A DNA stretch of 64,000 nt from Micrococcaceae bacterium (GTDB lineage: Bacteria > Actinomycetota > Actinomycetes > Actinomycetales > Micrococcaceae). Below the pieces are notes generated by a model. The model made no database searches, was not told the DNA's origin, and saw only the letters and a program-made list of their open reading frames with translations. Location: positions 1-64,000 of the forward strand of contig JABXHI010000059.1 of assembly GCA_013393415.1 (NCBI GenBank). The letters are read 5' to 3'. The position numbers were made by a program, and so were the translations under genes. Positions 28,924-46,739 of the stretch are shown here, piece by piece; the first letter of the stretch is position 1, and each line of letters opens with the position of its first letter.

Positions 28924-28968
28924 GCCGTTAAGCCACTTATGGGGTAAACCCTCGGCCCCGATGTCTAC

Positions 28969-28974
28969 TAAGAT
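28969..28974 (+). promoter_or_regulatory. -10 element for leaderless dapB
   Basis: TAAGAT ends seven bases before the dapB ATG at 28982, the spacing expected if transcription starts at the A of the start codon. No ribosome binding site exists upstream of this ATG. Confidence 0.5.
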
Positions 28975-28981
28975 AAGACCC

Positions 28982-29758
28982 ATGTCATCTCAAGCAGCTT
29001 CTACAACAGAGCCCATCAAAGTTGCACTCGTGGGTGCAACGGGAAAAATGGGGCAACACGCCATTGACGCGATTCATGCCGCAGACGACATGGAACTGGT
29101 GGCACAACTTGCCTCCCAGAGTCCATTGGCAGACATCACTGAGGCTGGCGCGACACACGTCCTCGATCTGACGGTTCCAGATGTCTCCTCAGACATTGCA
29201 GAATTCGCCGTCGCCAACGGGCTACATACTGTCATCGGAACTTCGGGGTGGACCGAAAACAAACGTGAAGTCCTGCAACGCCAGCTCGCAGAACAACCAA
29301 ACGTCGGCGTATTGATCGCCCCAAATTTCTCGATCGGTTCTGTCCTGGCGACACGCTTTGCTGCCCAAGCAGCCCCGTACTTCGACTCGGTCGAGATTAT
29401 CGAAATGCACCACCCGAAAAAAGTGGATGCGCCGTCAGGAACAGCCGTTCGAACAGCCGAGATGATTGCTGAAGCCCGTCAACAGGTGGGTGTTGGACCA
29501 TTCCCGGATGCCACCGAACACGATCCAGATCACGCTCGTGGTGCCCAGATCGCTGGCATCAACGTGCATGCCGTGCGGCTCGCTGGATTGGAAGCGCACC
29601 AGGAAGTGCTCATGGGGACACCGGGTCAACAACTCGTCTTTCGCCATGACGCCTTCGACCGCTCGTCCTACATGCCCGGCGTGTTATTGGGCCTACGCAC
29701 CGTGGCATCACGACCTGGCTTATCCTACGGGCTCGACTCCTACCTAGACCTGGACTAA
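28982..29758 (+). CDS. dapB: 4-hydroxy-tetrahydrodipicolinate reductase
   Basis: The ATG at 28982 is preferred because of the -10 element just before it; an in-frame ATG at 28961 has no support. The 258-residue enzyme has the nucleotide-binding GATGKMGQ and the active-site EMHHPKKVDAPSGTA with its His/Lys residues. It reduces HTPA with NAD(P)H in the DAP/lysine pathway. dapA lies 1.7 kb downstream. Confidence 0.95.
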   Translation: MSSQAASTTEPIKVALVGATGKMGQHAIDAIHAADDMELVAQLASQSPLADITEAGATHVLDLTVPDVSSDIAEFAVANGLHTVIGTSGWTENKREVLQRQLAEQPNVGVLIAPNFSIGSVLATRFAAQAAPYFDSVEIIEMHHPKKVDAPSGTAVRTAEMIAEARQQVGVGPFPDATEHDPDHARGAQIAGINVHAVRLAGLEAHQEVLMGTPGQQLVFRHDAFDRSSYMPGVLLGLRTVASRPGLSYGLDSYLDLD

Positions 29759-31469: not shown

Positions 31470-31500
31470 GACCTAAGGTGTTTTCACCCATTCTCACAGG

Positions 31501-31506
31501 TAGGCT
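31501..31506 (+). promoter_or_regulatory. -10 element for leaderless dapA
   Basis: TAGGCT ends seven bases before the ATG at 31514. There is no ribosome binding site, and a -35 is not obvious. Confidence 0.5.
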
Positions 31507-31513
31507 TGAGACT

Positions 31514-32446
31514 ATGAGTCAGACATTCCCAACACCTTCTCATGGTGACGCTTCAATGACCGAACCTCCTTTTGGCACCATGATCCCTGCAATGGTGACC
31601 CCATTTAGTGACGACGGCGAACTCGACATCAACGCCGCACAGTCCTTGGCGAACCACCTGGTCGATAACGGAGCAGACGGTCTCGTTGTCACCGGTACTA
31701 CCGGCGAAACCTCTACGCTCACCGATGACGAAAACATCAAAGTATTCGAAGCAGTAGTGGAAGCAGTCGGTGGGCGTGCCAAGGTGCTTGGCGGAACCGG
31801 TATGAACGACACTGCTCACTCGGCGCACCTCTCCAAGCGGGCCGAAGCGGCCGGTGTCGACGGTCTGCTGCTCGTCACCCCGTATTATAATAAGCCGAAT
31901 CAAGCGGGGATTCAGGCTCACTTCGAATACATAGCCTCTGCAACTGACCTGCCGGTCATGCTCTATGACATCCCGGGTCGTTCTGTGATGTCCATTGAGC
32001 CTGACACGCTGGTTGCCCTCGCGAAGCATGCCAATATTGTTGCCCTCAAAGATGCAAAAGCCGACTACCAGTCCACGACGCTAGCGCTGGCGAACACCGA
32101 TCTGGCGGTCTATTCTGGCGACGACGGGTTAACGCTGCCGCTGATGGCTGCTGGAGCCGTCGGCGTGGTGTCGGTGTCTGGGCATGTGGCTCCCCGAACC
32201 TTCCGCGAGCTCGTCGATGCCGCCAATGCTGGTGACTTTGCTACGGCTCGGCAAAAACACTTTGCACTGGACCCGATCCAGCGTGCTGTGATGACCCACA
32301 TCCAGGGTGCGGTCGCAGCCAAAACTGTTCTGCAATGGCAAGGCGTCATTCCGTCTGCCCGTGTCCGGCTGCCCCTTGTGGCAGCGACCGACCACGAAGC
32401 AGCTGTCATCAAAGCTGACCTTGCCGACGGCGGTATCACGTTCTAA
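31514..32446 (+). CDS. dapA: 4-hydroxy-tetrahydrodipicolinate synthase
   Basis: The 310-residue TIM-barrel enzyme has GTMIPAMVTPFSDDGELD, VTGTTGETSTL, VTPYYNKP with the catalytic Tyr, and VALKDAKADY with the Schiff-base Lys. It condenses pyruvate with aspartate semialdehyde, the first committed step to DAP and lysine. The start at 31514 is chosen because the -10 sits seven bases before; the frame is open upstream to 31478. Confidence 0.95.
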   Translation: MSQTFPTPSHGDASMTEPPFGTMIPAMVTPFSDDGELDINAAQSLANHLVDNGADGLVVTGTTGETSTLTDDENIKVFEAVVEAVGGRAKVLGGTGMNDTAHSAHLSKRAEAAGVDGLLLVTPYYNKPNQAGIQAHFEYIASATDLPVMLYDIPGRSVMSIEPDTLVALAKHANIVALKDAKADYQSTTLALANTDLAVYSGDDGLTLPLMAAGAVGVVSVSGHVAPRTFRELVDAANAGDFATARQKHFALDPIQRAVMTHIQGAVAAKTVLQWQGVIPSARVRLPLVAATDHEAAVIKADLADGGITF

Positions 32447-41041: not shown

Positions 41042-42541
41042 GTGACTCAAGCTGCGATTGCACCCACCACACAACGCTCGTATGAGATTCGGACGTTCGG
41101 ATGCCAAATGAATGTCCACGATTCCGAGAGAATTTCTGGTCTCTTAGAAGAACGCGGATACACAGTGGCTGATGCTGAAGCCACACCCGATCTCGTGGTA
41201 TTCAATACCTGTGCAGTGCGTGAAAACGCCGCAAATAAACTCTATGGGCACCTCGGTAACCTCAAGGTCGTCAAGGATGAACATCCTGGGATGCAAATTG
41301 CTGTAGGTGGCTGCCTGGCCCAAAAAGATCAGGACAGTATCGTTGAGCGAGCTCCCTGGGTGGATGTTGTTTTTGGCACGCACAACATCGGATCACTCCC
41401 GGTGCTACTAGAACGTTCGCGTCACAATGAGTCTGCACAAGTCGAACTCTTGGAAGCATTGGAAACATTTCCTTCGACCTTGCCCACGAAAAGAGAGTCC
41501 AGCTACTCTGGTTGGGTTTCCATTTCGGTGGGTTGCAACAACACCTGTACGTTTTGTATCGTTCCATCCCTGCGTGGAAAAGAGAAAGATCGCAGGCCTG
41601 GAGACATTCTGTCCGAGGTACAGGCACTTGTGGACGACGGTGCCGTGGAAGTCACCTTGCTTGGTCAAAACGTGAACACCTACGGTGTGGAATTCCGTGA
41701 TCGTCAGGCTTTCTCGAAACTCCTGCGAGCCACAGGCGACATTGAAGGTCTGGAACGCGTTCGGTTTACGAGTCCGCACCCAGCATCATTTACCGAAGAT
41801 GTCATTGATGCAATGGCCGAAACTCCTAATGTTATGCCGCAGCTGCATATGCCCTTGCAATCGGGTTCAGACGCGATTTTGAAATCGATGCGTCGTTCGT
41901 ATCGTTCAAAGCGATTTCTCGGAATTTTAGATAAGGTTCGGGAACGCATCCCACATGCGGCCGTTACGACAGATATTATCGTGGGTTTCCCCGGCGAGAC
42001 CGAGGAAGATTTCCAACAGACGCTAGACGTCGTGGAGGCTTCCCGATTTTCTATGGCCTACACCTTCCAATATTCTCCACGCGAAGGAACGCCTGCTGCA
42101 GAAATGGGAGACCAAATTCCAAAAGAAGTCGTGCAAGAACGCTTCGAGCGCTTGGTCGCCCTACAAGATCGGATAGCCGCGGAAGAGTCTGCCAAACGCG
42201 TGGGCACCGAACAAGAAGTACTGGTCACCAACGATACCGGCGCACGAGGCGAGCAAACAGGACGTCTCACAGGACGGGCACCAGATAACCGTCTCGTGCA
42301 CTTTAGCCTCCCGCATGGCGTAGAAAGTCCGCGACCCGGTGATTTTGTGACGGTGCCGATCACCGAAGCGTACTCGTATCACCTCATTGCTGATCCGACC
42401 AGTGCAGACCAGTACTTCCTGCGCCGGTCGCGTGCTGGAGATGCCTGGGATCGTCGTCAAGCCGAATCGTGCGGTACCGGCCCGTCGGTACCAACAGCTG
42501 GTGTCAACCTCGGGCTGCCGAGCTTGCGTGTCGACGCATAA
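41042..42541 (+). CDS. miaB: tRNA-2-methylthio-N6-dimethylallyladenosine synthase
   Basis: The 499-residue protein starts at GTG 41042, seven bases after recX. The N-terminal Fe-S domain has Cys in [15 protein letters not shown] and GGCLAQ; the radical SAM site CNNTCTFC is near residue 168; and a TRAM domain follows. It adds the methylthio group to A37 of tRNAs reading UNN codons, after MiaA. The extra C-terminal 55 residues appear unstructured. Its last 14 bases overlap miaA. Confidence 0.95.
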
Positions 42542-43448
42542 TAGACCGCCAGTTGTGGCGCTTGTCGGAGCCACGGCAACAGGAAAATCTGATCTGGCCG
42601 TGGCCCTGGCGCAGGCAGTCGATGGTGAAATTATTAATGCTGATGCCATGCAGTTCTATCAAGGCATGGACATTGGTACGGCGAAAATCACTGAAGCCGA
42701 ACAGCAAGGTATTGTTCATCATCTGCTGGATATATACCCGCTGCATGTCGAGGCAACTGTCGCCGGGTTTCAAACGCAAGCTCGAAATACGATTACGGAT
42801 ATTCGAACCCGCGACAGAATACCGATTTTGGTCGGCGGATCTGGCCTGTACGTCCGAGCAGCGCTGGACACTTTAGAATTTCCGCCGACCAATACTGCGC
42901 TACGCCAACAACTCATCGGGGAAGTCGAGTTGTCAGGTATCGACCATCTGGTCAAGGAATTGCAAACAGTGGATCCCGATGCCGCCCACCGGCTCAGCGA
43001 TGAGCGACGAATCATTCGTGCAGTAGAAGTGCATCGACTCACGGGTCGACCCTTCAGCTCATTCATGCCGCAACGCGAATATCATCCGGATACCCAGCCG
43101 GTAGTTCAAATTGGGTTGAGTATTCCCCGTACGCTATTGCACGAGCGAGTCGAACAACGGGTTTATAAGATGTTCGACGCAGGGTGGGTCGAAGAAGTGA
43201 GTCGTCTGCAAGACGTCGGACTGGCCCAGGCCCCAACCGCTTCGAAGGCTATTGGGTACCGCCAAATGCTGGACTACTTGGCCGGTTCCATCACCAGAAA
43301 CGAAGCAATCGAATCTACAATAGTAGCCACGCGGCGATTTGCCCGTCGCCAAGAAACTTGGTTTAAAGCCGATCACCGAGTTCACTGGATTGATACACAA
43401 TCCGATGATCTCGTGGCAGATGCTTTAACCGTCATTGAATCACGCTAG
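42528..43448 (+). CDS. miaA: tRNA dimethylallyltransferase
   Basis: I choose GTG at 42528 ([14 protein letters not shown]); the frame is open 47 codons upstream inside miaB. The 306-residue enzyme has the P-loop [23 protein letters not shown], and [11 protein letters not shown], and later [12 protein letters not shown]. It transfers the dimethylallyl group to A37 of tRNA, the substrate of MiaB. It uses dimethylallyl diphosphate, so an isoprenoid route must exist elsewhere. Confidence 0.94.
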
Positions 43449-43451
43449 GGT
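43446..43451 (+). promoter_or_regulatory. Candidate -10 for a leaderless dapF-like transcript
   Basis: TAGGGT overlaps the miaA stop codon and ends six bases before the ATG at 43458; no ribosome binding site is present. Confidence 0.4.
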
Positions 43452-43457
43452 GCACTC

Positions 43458-44369
43458 ATGACCGCTAAACCACAGCCACTGCACGAGCAAGGCTTGCTTC
43501 GTCAAACTCTTGCTGGGACTCGGTTTGTTAAAATCGCGGGCCCGGTAGGGGACTGGATCGTGTTCTATGATGCCGCGGACGCAATCACGCTCACAGAAAA
43601 ACGCGTTATCGCTCTCTGCGACAGGGTGGGTGGCGTTGGAGCCAGGGGAGTCGTGCTGATAGCCCCGGCCCAAGACTCCTCGAGCGGGACCACCCCGCAA
43701 TCCCGTATCGAGGCGTGGCACGCTGACGGCGCACCAGCCCACAACATGACCGAGCCAGCACGTGCCGCGACCTGCGGCCTGGCTGTCTTGAATAAAATTT
43801 CGGTCGAGGAAACCAGCCATCACATCTTCGAATCCAACTTTGGGCCGATTACTACGGTCTATACACCTTCATATATTGGTGTCGACATTGGACAATGGGC
43901 GTTTACTGAACCGAATACGGCCGAAGCAGCAGGCTCAGACGTACTCGTGATGGCGGCAGGACTCACTGATCCACGACCGGGGCTAAGCGTGCACATCCAA
44001 ACCAACCATGTCACCATTGCCGTGGAATCAGTGCACGAGCTTGAAACCATCGATCTTGAGCAGCAACCTTCCCTTGAGCCACCCCCTACCATGCCAACCA
44101 GCACCAGTTTCGTCGTACCCCAAGATCCCCTGATGGACGAGCAAATGGGCCAGCTTCGACTGCGGAGCTACACAGAAAATCGGAACGATCACGATCTTGC
44201 ATCCGCCGCTGCCGCTGCGACCGTTGCATTTCAAACTTGGTCAGGGCTCAAGCAGCTAAAGATTTGGAATGTGGCAACCGAACACGGCGACATCGTCGTC
44301 CAGATGCACGAGAAACAGCGGCTGTCGACCTTCGCTAAGCTATCGACTGCATTCTTTGGCACACTCTAG
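43458..44369 (+). CDS. DapF-like protein lacking both catalytic cysteines
   Basis: The 303-residue protein occupies the dapF slot after miaA and follows the DapF fold along its length: LTEKRVIALCDRVGGVGARG (about 45-63), AAGLTDPRPGLSV (166-178) and FVVPQDPL (218-225) match actinobacterial DapF. But the first active-site motif, normally MCGNGxR, reads MTEPARA with Thr98 for the catalytic Cys, and the second, normally SCGTG, reads LASAA with Ala248. The substrate-binding ERGxxET is also lost. It should not racemise LL-DAP by the known mechanism. There is no frameshift, so it is probably an expressed protein with another role. Confidence 0.8.
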   Translation: MTAKPQPLHEQGLLRQTLAGTRFVKIAGPVGDWIVFYDAADAITLTEKRVIALCDRVGGVGARGVVLIAPAQDSSSGTTPQSRIEAWHADGAPAHNMTEPARAATCGLAVLNKISVEETSHHIFESNFGPITTVYTPSYIGVDIGQWAFTEPNTAEAAGSDVLVMAAGLTDPRPGLSVHIQTNHVTIAVESVHELETIDLEQQPSLEPPPTMPTSTSFVVPQDPLMDEQMGQLRLRSYTENRNDHDLASAAAAATVAFQTWSGLKQLKIWNVATEHGDIVVQMHEKQRLSTFAKLSTAFFGTL

Positions 44370-44983
44370 GCACGCTCGATATGCAAAATACGGAACCCTT
44401 TGTCCGTTGCCGGCCGCCGAACTGTGAATTCCCCAGGACTGTGCTCATCAAGCATCTTGGCAATCCAAGGCATCAGGGAATCGGCTCCAAGTTTCTTTGC
44501 CACCACCAACCAAGCGTGTCCACCATGATTAAGTACCGGCAACCAGCGTGACAAAATCTCATGCAGTGCTTGCTTGCCGATACGGATCGGTGGATTCGAC
44601 CAGATCACGTCAAAACGCGCATCCTCAGGCACTTCATCAGGATGTTGCACGGTGATGTTGTCCACGCCGAGACGCGCTGCATTGGAAGCTGTCAGACTCG
44701 CAGCACGTTCGTTGACTTCGATAGCCGTCACGCGAGCGTCCGGAGCGAGGAGCCCCATCGTCAGAGCGACGGGCCCCCACCCAGAACCGATATCTAAAAA
44801 CTCTCCGGCCGTAGGTGGATGGGGGACGTTGTCGAGCAGCACTGCCGTGCCGCGATCAAGGCCATCGGGCGAGAAAATGCTCCCGGCAGTTTCGACTTCG
44901 AAATCTTCTCCAGCCAGTTTCACCTCGACGACGCGTCGACGTGCTTGTCCGATGGGCGCAGCAGAAAAATAGTGATCGTTCAT
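44366..44983 (-). CDS. Class I methyltransferase, RsmC-like (MTS domain)
   Basis: The 205-residue protein has GEFLDIGSGWGPVALTMGL (SAM site, about 70) and the catalytic motif NPPIRIG near residue 130, the NPP-[FYI] motif of MTS-domain N-methyltransferases acting on guanine in rRNA. The start at 44983 is favoured by a TAGACT seven bases upstream; ATG 45025 is an alternative. It overlaps the DapF-like gene by four bases at the stops. Confidence 0.82.
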   Translation of the reverse strand: MNDHYFSAAPIGQARRRVVEVKLAGEDFEVETAGSIFSPDGLDRGTAVLLDNVPHPPTAGEFLDIGSGWGPVALTMGLLAPDARVTAIEVNERAASLTASNAARLGVDNITVQHPDEVPEDARFDVIWSNPPIRIGKQALHEILSRWLPVLNHGGHAWLVVAKKLGADSLMPWIAKMLDEHSPGEFTVRRPATDKGFRILHIERA

Positions 44984-44990
44984 CGTGCTT

Positions 44991-44996
44991 AGTCTA
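44991..44996 (-). promoter_or_regulatory. -10 element for the leaderless methyltransferase gene
   Basis: On the minus strand TAGACT ends seven bases before the ATG at 44983; no ribosome binding site is seen. The remainder of the 220-base gap to hflX shows only a weak TACAAT (45168-45173) for hflX. Confidence 0.45.
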
Positions 44997-45203
44997 ATAC
45001 GACCAAGGCCACCAATTGTTGCCATTCCGGGGTGCTGCGGTGAACGATCGCTGGAATACTACACCTCAAGATTGTGTTGTATTGCTTACAAGAGTGCACA
45101 AAACATCACGCGGGTCTCTCCACACTCGTGGCTGATCTCGAGTCGTGGAGCGTCACGTGTGAAAGACTACAATTAAGGAATAGAACCTCTGCACAAGGAG
45201 AAA

Positions 45204-46739
45204 ATGGTCACTCAACACGAACCCACTGATCCTCAAGTTGATCAGCAAGTCAAAAAGCTGATCGATCGGATCTTATCTGCCGAAGATGCGAAAGCTTCGC
45301 ACACCCAGGCGGACGATGAGTATGCGAAAAATGCTCAGGCGCTTGATGCCGGGGGATCGAATTACACTGAATTCGATGGTGATCAATTCGAATTGGCCCA
45401 GCGCCATGCCCTGCGGCGTGTGGCCGGATTATCCACCGAACTGGAGGATGTCACCGAGGTTGAATATCGTCAGCTTCGCTTGGAGAATGTTGTGTTGGCG
45501 GGGCTGTGGACCGAAGGCACAGTAACCGAAGCCGAGCACTCCCTGCGTGAATTGGCCGCACTTGCCAACACTGCCGGGTCGACTGTGCTCGACGGGATCA
45601 TCCAACGACGTCACGCGCCAGATCCGGCAACTTTTCTCGGTCGAGGCAAAGCAGAACAACTCGCTGACGTTGTGCGCGAGCATGGGGCAGATACGATCAT
45701 CGTTGACACCGAATTGGCGCCATCACAGCGTCGCGGGCTCGAAGATGTCTGCCGTGTTAAAGTCATTGACCGTACGGCACTGATCCTCGATATTTTTGCC
45801 CAACACGCTCAATCTAAAGAGGGTAAGGCTCAAGTCGAGCTAGCCCAGCTGGAATACCTGCTGCCACGACTGCGCGGTTGGGGCGAATCTATGTCTCGTC
45901 AGGCCGGCGGTCAGGCCGCAGGCGGTGCTGGGATCGGCTCGCGTGGCCCCGGTGAGACGAAGATTGAACTCGACCGTCGTCGAATCCGCGATCGGATGGC
46001 GAAACTTCGTCGCGAAATCAAAGGCATGAAAAATGCTCGCGAGACGAAGCGAGCTCGCCGACGTCGTAATCAGGTCCCGTCTGTAGCCATCGCGGGGTAT
46101 ACAAACGCTGGAAAGTCCTCGATCCTCAACCGTTTGACCAAAGCTGGCGTCATAGTAGAAAACGCTTTGTTTGCTACGTTGGACCCGACGGTCCGATCCG
46201 CTGAATCAATTGACGGTGTTGCGTATACGCTCACCGACACGGTCGGTTTCGTTCGGCAGCTTCCGACTCAGTTAGTTGAGGCATTTCGATCGACGCTGGA
46301 AGAAGTCGATGAAGCGGATCTGATTGTGCATGTTGTTGATGCCTCTCATCCAGAGCCTGAAGCTCAGATTATGGCTGTTCGACAGGTCTTCGCCGAGACA
46401 CAGATCGCAGACATTAGTGAACTCATGGTCTTCAACAAAGCAGATGCGGCAGACCCACTTGTGCTGGCGGGTTTGCAACGCAAATATCCGCAGGCGCTGA
46501 TTGTCTCGGCTGCATCGGGTGAAGGATTCGCACAGCTGGAGGCGGCAATCGCCCAGCGACTACCACGTCCCAGTGTGCACCTGGATTTGTTAGTGCCTTA
46601 TACCGACGGCGATGTCGTGCACCGACTACACTCGGATGACACTGAAATTTTGACGGAAACTTATGAACCAGAAGGTACTGCGATGACCGTGCTGGTCTAC
46701 CCCCAAGACAAGGACAATTACCTCAGCTATGTCCGGTAA
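45204..46739 (+). CDS. hflX: GTPase HflX
   Basis: AAGGAG lies before the ATG. The 511-residue protein has the HflX N-domain (GRGKAEQLADVVREHGADTIIVD), the linker with GAGIGSRGPGETKIELDRR, and the G domain with GYTNAGKSSILNRL (about 296) and LTDTVGFVRQLP. HflX splits stalled ribosomes after heat or antibiotic stress. Its end overlaps dinG by 11 bases. Confidence 0.95.
   Translation: MVTQHEPTDPQVDQQVKKLIDRILSAEDAKASHTQADDEYAKNAQALDAGGSNYTEFDGDQFELAQRHALRRVAGLSTELEDVTEVEYRQLRLENVVLAGLWTEGTVTEAEHSLRELAALANTAGSTVLDGIIQRRHAPDPATFLGRGKAEQLADVVREHGADTIIVDTELAPSQRRGLEDVCRVKVIDRTALILDIFAQHAQSKEGKAQVELAQLEYLLPRLRGWGESMSRQAGGQAAGGAGIGSRGPGETKIELDRRRIRDRMAKLRREIKGMKNARETKRARRRRNQVPSVAIAGYTNAGKSSILNRLTKAGVIVENALFATLDPTVRSAESIDGVAYTLTDTVGFVRQLPTQLVEAFRSTLEEVDEADLIVHVVDASHPEPEAQIMAVRQVFAETQIADISELMVFNKADAADPLVLAGLQRKYPQALIVSAASGEGFAQLEAAIAQRLPRPSVHLDLLVPYTDGDVVHRLHSDDTEILTETYEPEGTAMTVLVYPQDKDNYLSYVR

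Follow-up and report, generated by a model that had tools for sequence, protein, structure and literature searches.

A cysteine-less DapF homologue in the dapF slot of Yaniella: a probable pseudoenzyme beside a Ddh bypass

Why should a gene in the place of dapF persist when its product carries neither of the cysteines by which DAP epimerase works? The window (the whole 64,000-nucleotide stretch of DNA analysed, from the Yaniella genome G000) holds such a gene on the forward strand at positions 43458–44369, a 303-residue open reading frame that has orthologues in all nine Yaniella genomes and is termed pseudo-DapF here. Its ATG start at 43458 follows the TAG stop (43446–43448) of miaA (42555–43448, forward strand; assigned by TIGR00174 at 262.3 bits and by synteny, and used below as the yardstick for substitution rates and for a tree). 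Its end overlaps by four bases the 3′ end of a convergent methyltransferase gene (44366–45025, reverse strand), so no co-directional gene follows directly and polarity on the next gene is an unlikely reason for retention. The reading frame, its coordinates and its position in the dapF slot after miaA are as the initial annotation had described them.

Against the DapF model TIGR00652 the protein scores 28.8 bits (E = 7.6e-07, residues 22–287), not reaching the cut-off of 114.65, and against Pfam PF01678 (DAP_epimerase) it scores 18.5, below the cut-off of 34.7; a family scan matched DAP_epimerase and no PhzF model. A profile of the nine Yaniella copies aligned over 283 columns with one built from nine active DapFs (hhalign, 99.95%), and this alignment, together with the length, the segment order and the place after miaA, is what the protein shares with DapF (C. 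glutamicum 5H2G), from which it differs in its replaced cysteines and DAP ligands and in scoring far below the curated cut-offs. The predicted product is thereby confirmed as homologous to DapF over nearly its full length, and its gene as occupying the dapF slot. An AlphaFold2 model built from two sequences only (the window protein and its Yaniella halotolerans counterpart) had a mean pLDDT of 35.1, and the two-domain fold and dimer are putative, drawn from sequence. Codon adaptation was uninformative as a sign of expression, the antisense strand (CAI 0.678) equalling or exceeding the sense strand (0.673). A scan of positions 42300–45300 returned one promoter-like site, where 1.6 were expected, and five terminator-like ones, where 2.6 were expected; all five lie on the minus strand, and there is none on the plus strand at the end of the pseudo-DapF gene.

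In the profile alignment, Met97-Thr98-Glu99 (43746–43754, forward strand) stands at the first catalytic loop, which reads Cys-Gly-Asn in DapF, with Cys opposite Met97, Gly opposite Thr98 and Asn opposite Glu99. The second, Cys-Gly-Thr in DapF, corresponds to Leu247-Ala248-Ser249 (44196–44204, forward strand), with the cysteine column at Leu247. The loss of both cysteines, claimed in the initial annotation, is thus borne out, but their columns lie at Met97 and Leu247 and not, as proposed there, at Thr98 and Ala248. Further DAP ligands are replaced as well: when the ligands of C. glutamicum DapF, as named in the accessible part of PMC5296763, were mapped by alignment, N74, G84, N85, N159, N194, E212, R213, G222 and T223 were all found to be substituted in the window protein, the change at T223 being only to Ser. 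Across the genus the two cysteine columns hold Met or Leu (first) and Leu or Val (second) in 9/9 genomes, which rules out the sequencing error raised at the outset as a possible cause of the loss, and Glu99 is invariant in all nine and also present in the related genus g17. The sole cysteines of the window protein are C54 and C106; C106 was rejected as a substitute catalytic residue, since five of the nine genus members have F, S or Y in its column. Judged by its aligned active-site residues, the window protein cannot be a DAP epimerase that works by the known two-cysteine mechanism.

The substrate of DapF, LL-DAP, is reached through DapD and DapE, whereas Ddh converts tetrahydrodipicolinate directly to meso-DAP. 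The upstream steps common to both routes are intact in the window, as first reported: dapB (28961–29758, forward strand) scores 188.4 bits against TIGR00036 (cut-off 122) and dapA (31478–32446, forward strand) 285.4 bits against TIGR00674 (cut-off 206.15). The initial annotation had supposed that meso-DAP comes by another route, such as DAP dehydrogenase or a second dapF. The former gains support from a full-length ddh in G000 (G000:C27:99387–100331; TIGR01921, 412.6 bits, or 412.9 on the open reading frame, cut-off 180.6). The latter was rejected by whole-genome profile searches, in which PF01678 gave no match at E 0.001 and the lone DapF match in G000 lay below the cut-off.

Within the genus (g1, genomes G000–G008), every orthologue is cysteine-less and free of stops, the other eight being 56–67% identical to the window's copy (66% for the homologous locus of Yaniella halotolerans DSM 15476); the G007 orthologue is spread over two contigs. 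Gene order around pseudo-DapF is conserved in the Yaniella loci inspected. In the family, 279 of 295 genomes have a DapF over the cut-off, and the 16 that fail it are the nine Yaniella, four genomes of g12, one of g17, G145 and G163. A ddh over the cut-off occurs in 61 of the 295: 8/9 Yaniella (the exception, G007, is 71% complete), 4/4 g12, 1/1 g17 and 48 of 281 others, two of which (G141 and G243) carry the gene in broken or split form. The succinylase branch shows the reverse, with dapD over the cut-off in 0/14 genomes of Yaniella, g12 and g17 versus 13/13 others searched, and dapE in 0/14 versus 12/13 (the exception being G020). In G000 itself dapD gives no match, and dapE none above the cut-off. 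The absence of dapE rests on the curated cut-off, weaker dapE-type matches, taken for paralogues, being found in all 27 genomes searched. Since dapD is missing and no dapE exceeds the cut-off, LL-DAP is predicted not to be produced by the succinylase route in Yaniella, g12 and g17. The peptidoglycan type of Yaniella was not found in the open-licence literature, including the accessible part of PMC6113628. Two further genomes depart from the common gene sets: G145 (2 contigs, 97% complete) has dapD and dapE but neither a DapF match nor a ddh over the cut-off, which would reflect either a gap in the assembly or an epimerase of unknown type, and G020 has an intact DapF and dapD with no dapE over the cut-off, so that another desuccinylase may stand in its place.

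Genera g12 and g17 carry cysteine-less DapF homologues of their own between miaA and the methyltransferase gene; one copy from each was scanned, and no NCBIfam model matched at E 0.001. In a midpoint-rooted six-gene tree (2446 columns), g17 and Yaniella group together (UFBoot 100), and g12 groups with G018 (100), whose DapF is intact; by eye, the ddh neighbours appear common to Yaniella and g17 and different in g12. Tree groupings and ddh neighbourhoods thus point to two separate events of cysteine loss within the family, the one in Yaniella and g17 predating the split of those genera on this tree.

The loss extends beyond the family. In a survey of order genomes at least 90% complete, DapF exceeded the cut-off in 361 of 396; further searches covered 20 of the 27 genomes without any DapF match, two with weak matches and five more, and 151 genomes of family f3 were then searched for DapF, of which 71 matched. 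Inspection of 87 loci, including 66 of those 71 (all except G512, G521, G588, G603 and G765), added to the first 14 genomes G519 (family f13), members of g50 and g97, G556 and G693, giving 30 genomes in which one or both cysteines are lost; G681, whose frame is split and of which the alignment took one half, is not counted among them. The g97 genomes with loss are G476, G687, G705, G717, G726 and G737. In two of these, G687 (G687:C1:699121, L145) and G726 (G726:C1:18016, L141), an intact DapF is encoded away from miaA while the cysteine-less copy still lies beside it. The genus g50 is mixed, with DapF intact in G341, G445, G757, G732 and G768, the first cysteine alone lost in G743, the second alone in G457 and G750, and both in G564, G432, G764 and G312. 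The active site is half lost in G457 and G750 (L082, L118), where the first cysteine remains and Tyr takes the place of the second. What is left in G556 (L088/L153) is an open frame of 178 residues, the N-terminal portion of DapF followed by a short tail, without the stretch that would hold the second cysteine, and in g19 (G026, G406 and G503) ddh is present with no DapF match.

On a MiaA tree, 29 of 94 tips bear the loss and fall into 10 separate groups in three families, assuming that loss is irreversible. This is a single-gene tree of a chosen tip set, which includes six outgroup loci used in this tree only and 17 tips from outside the 87-locus inspection, all with both cysteine motifs present; ten loci without a usable miaA, G007 among them, are absent from it. 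Because support is weak at some nodes (0.44–0.93 around G519, 0.61 for the G764/G732 pair) and the tree rests on one gene from a chosen set, about ten independent losses is an estimate. Cysteine loss accompanies ddh in 19 of the 20 affected genomes searched for it, these being the 30 less G432, G687, G693, G705, G717, G726, G737, G743, G750 and G764.

Selection on the retained copies was measured as dN/dS by NG86 with bootstrap, in line with an early proposal to align the protein with its relatives and look for purifying selection. Four Yaniella pairs gave 0.088 (0.057–0.134; G001/G003), 0.104 (0.054–0.168; G004/G006, with dS of 2.1 near saturation), 0.125 (0.080–0.172; G002/G003) and 0.133 (0.092–0.191; G001/G002), with miaA at 0.06–0.12 in the same pairs. 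Bootstrapped values were 0.123, 0.147 and 0.200 in three g12 pairs and 0.148 and 0.216 in g97, and intact DapF pairs, for comparison, gave 0.080 and 0.158, with 0.117 and 0.205 in two more. Pairs of g50 with losses stood at 0.268, 0.318 and 0.460, the last (G743/G312, 0.46 versus 0.21 for miaA) looking relaxed. Where one member is intact, the values were 0.67 versus 0.25 for miaA (G693/G672), 0.45 versus 0.30 (G432/G768) and 0.44 versus 0.23 (G764/G732). Four pairs were set aside: G688/G706, G738/G759 and G494/G539 (0.85, 0.54 and 0.35), whose stop-to-stop frames run far beyond DapF, and G556/G702, in which dS is saturated.

Amino-acid identities among G001–G003 are alike for pseudo-DapF and MiaA (0.78–0.84 versus 0.77–0.82), a likeness limited to the closest Yaniella pairs, since deeper ones diverge further in pseudo-DapF (G000/G008, 0.57 versus 0.67; G005/G006, 0.58 versus 0.70; G004/G006, 0.69 versus 0.81). 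RecA, miaB, hflX and dinG are far more conserved in Yaniella than either gene. In a neutral simulation of substitutions only, with indels left out, 0.7% of frames stayed open at 0.25 substitutions per site and 0/400 at 0.5, where the mean was 8.0 stops. Given the low dN/dS and this rapid loss of frame, purifying selection acts on the copies of Yaniella, g12 and g97, and several g50 copies are less constrained; a neutral pseudogene in Yaniella is rejected on the same two grounds, the simulation being indel-free. The new role that the initial annotation had assigned to the protein is upheld as far as some role goes, by purifying selection; its newness is not, the parallel losses fitting an old non-catalytic role at least as well.

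The strongest rival account is slow erosion, in which a functionless relic loses its cysteines, then its domains and finally the gene, the open frame being a leftover. The stages seen in g50 (intact, one cysteine lost, both lost), the 178-residue remnant in G556 and the lack of any DapF match in g19 form such a series, and some lineages evolve faster than their miaA: in four of five g12 pairs, pseudo-DapF has dN/dS of 0.13–0.22 versus 0.04–0.07 for miaA (2–4 times). Against this stand the Yaniella ratios, whose upper limits (0.134–0.191) are low, the absence of internal stops from 14/14 copies of g1, g12 and g17, the speed with which a neutral frame is lost, and an age of the loss greater than that of the g1/g17 split by the tree. 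As a general account erosion is therefore unlikely. It is disfavoured for Yaniella, g12 and g97, fits G556 and g19, and may proceed stepwise in some younger lineages. As g19 has ddh and no DapF match, retention is not obligatory, and g19 may be where the same path ends.

The DapF-like fold class also has members without catalytic cysteines, PhzF among them, and PhzF carries out cysteine-free chemistry. By analogy, the pseudo-DapF pocket might have been repurposed for a different, cysteine-free reaction using Glu99, which is invariant in 9/9 Yaniella and kept in g17. Two of 17 aligned DapF-type sequences, a set that includes three active DapFs, weakly match PhzC-PhzF (best E 0.00047); the window protein itself hits DAP_epimerase and none of the PhzF models. 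An entropy scan bears on this reading. Active DapFs are most conserved, by 12-residue windows, in their catalytic stretches, the ERGVGET-SCGTG region first, followed by the RNGDG, GIGADG and MCGNG regions. In the Yaniella copies conservation peaks no longer in the catalytic loops but in ITTVYTPSYIGVDIGQW (residues 131–147; 43848–43898, forward strand), which is among the most conserved segments of the genus, and AAGSDVLVMAAGLTDPRPGLS (residues 157–177; 43926–43988, forward strand), which holds its most conserved 12-residue windows. The pocket itself is mixed: Gly31 and Glu99 are invariant and Met97 and Leu247 nearly so, whereas the columns of N74, N159, E212 and R213 are variable (entropy 1.8–2.7 versus a core mean of 0.94), that of N74 holding seven different residues in nine genomes, and the second cysteine column is Leu or Val. 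Random sets of positions are not significantly better conserved than the pocket positions taken together (p 0.26). The pattern as a whole leans away from a repurposed catalytic pocket, which we regard as improbable. A regulatory subunit of lysine metabolism, binding Ddh, DapA or LysA or sensing lysine or DAP, in the manner of the trypanosome prozyme, which reportedly acts in this way on its partner, would suit the co-occurrence of the loss with the Ddh route (19 of the 20 genomes searched), but is more improbable still, given that the amino-acid ligands of the pocket are lost, that 47 of the 48 other family genomes with ddh have it beside a DapF over the cut-off (G163 has no DapF match) and that g19 has ddh without DapF.

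The reading that we favour, with moderate confidence, is that the window gene encodes a DapF pseudoenzyme, orphaned by a Ddh bypass and retained for a non-catalytic, probably protein-binding role. Ddh would supply meso-DAP and render DapF catalysis dispensable; the DapD/DapE branch is missing (dapE by the curated cut-off), and the DapF homologue, its cysteines and substrate ligands gone, is kept in the same slot. Its retention after another enzyme had taken over its task suggests that the old protein is still useful in some other way, the most likely non-catalytic job being that folded pseudo-DapF binds another protein as a scaffold or activator. As this kind of loss, with the frame retained, has arisen about ten times, this second job is probably old in the order and not an invention of Yaniella.

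A precedent for such a role comes from E. coli, in which, according to the accessible part of PMC4227774, DapF C73A/C217A loses epimerase activity and still binds and stimulates the Nudix enzyme RppH, and overproduction of the cysteine-less mutant slightly accelerates the decay of some mRNAs. That a DapF polypeptide without both cysteines can act on another protein makes a non-catalytic role plausible here, with activation of a Nudix enzyme by DapF of this order as a candidate. In E. coli, the DapF/RppH pair has a growth phenotype under osmotic stress. The E. coli protein is an engineered mutant of an active enzyme (PMC4227774, same part), whereas the present one is natural, fixed in a genus and known from its sequence. 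Pseudoenzymes as a kind and a non-catalytic job of DapF are thus already known; a natural, fixed and recurrent cysteine-less DapF was not found described in the open-licence literature, judged by titles and the beginnings of abstracts.

For annotation, these proteins call for caution: cysteine-less copies do not reach the curated cut-off for DapF, and no NCBIfam model recognises the g12 and g17 copies scanned. DapF is usually seen as an enzyme of metabolism and a drug target. Because Ddh lineages repeatedly drop its catalysis and keep the protein, with clear purifying selection where sampling is better and in one genus even beside a second, intact DapF, we tentatively suggest, with less confidence than for the window gene itself, that DapF in this actinobacterial order may have an old non-catalytic function independent of DAP metabolism. 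With the chemistry dropped many times and the polypeptide kept, these lineages would provide a natural experiment that separates the catalytic from the non-catalytic function of DapF and makes the second directly testable.
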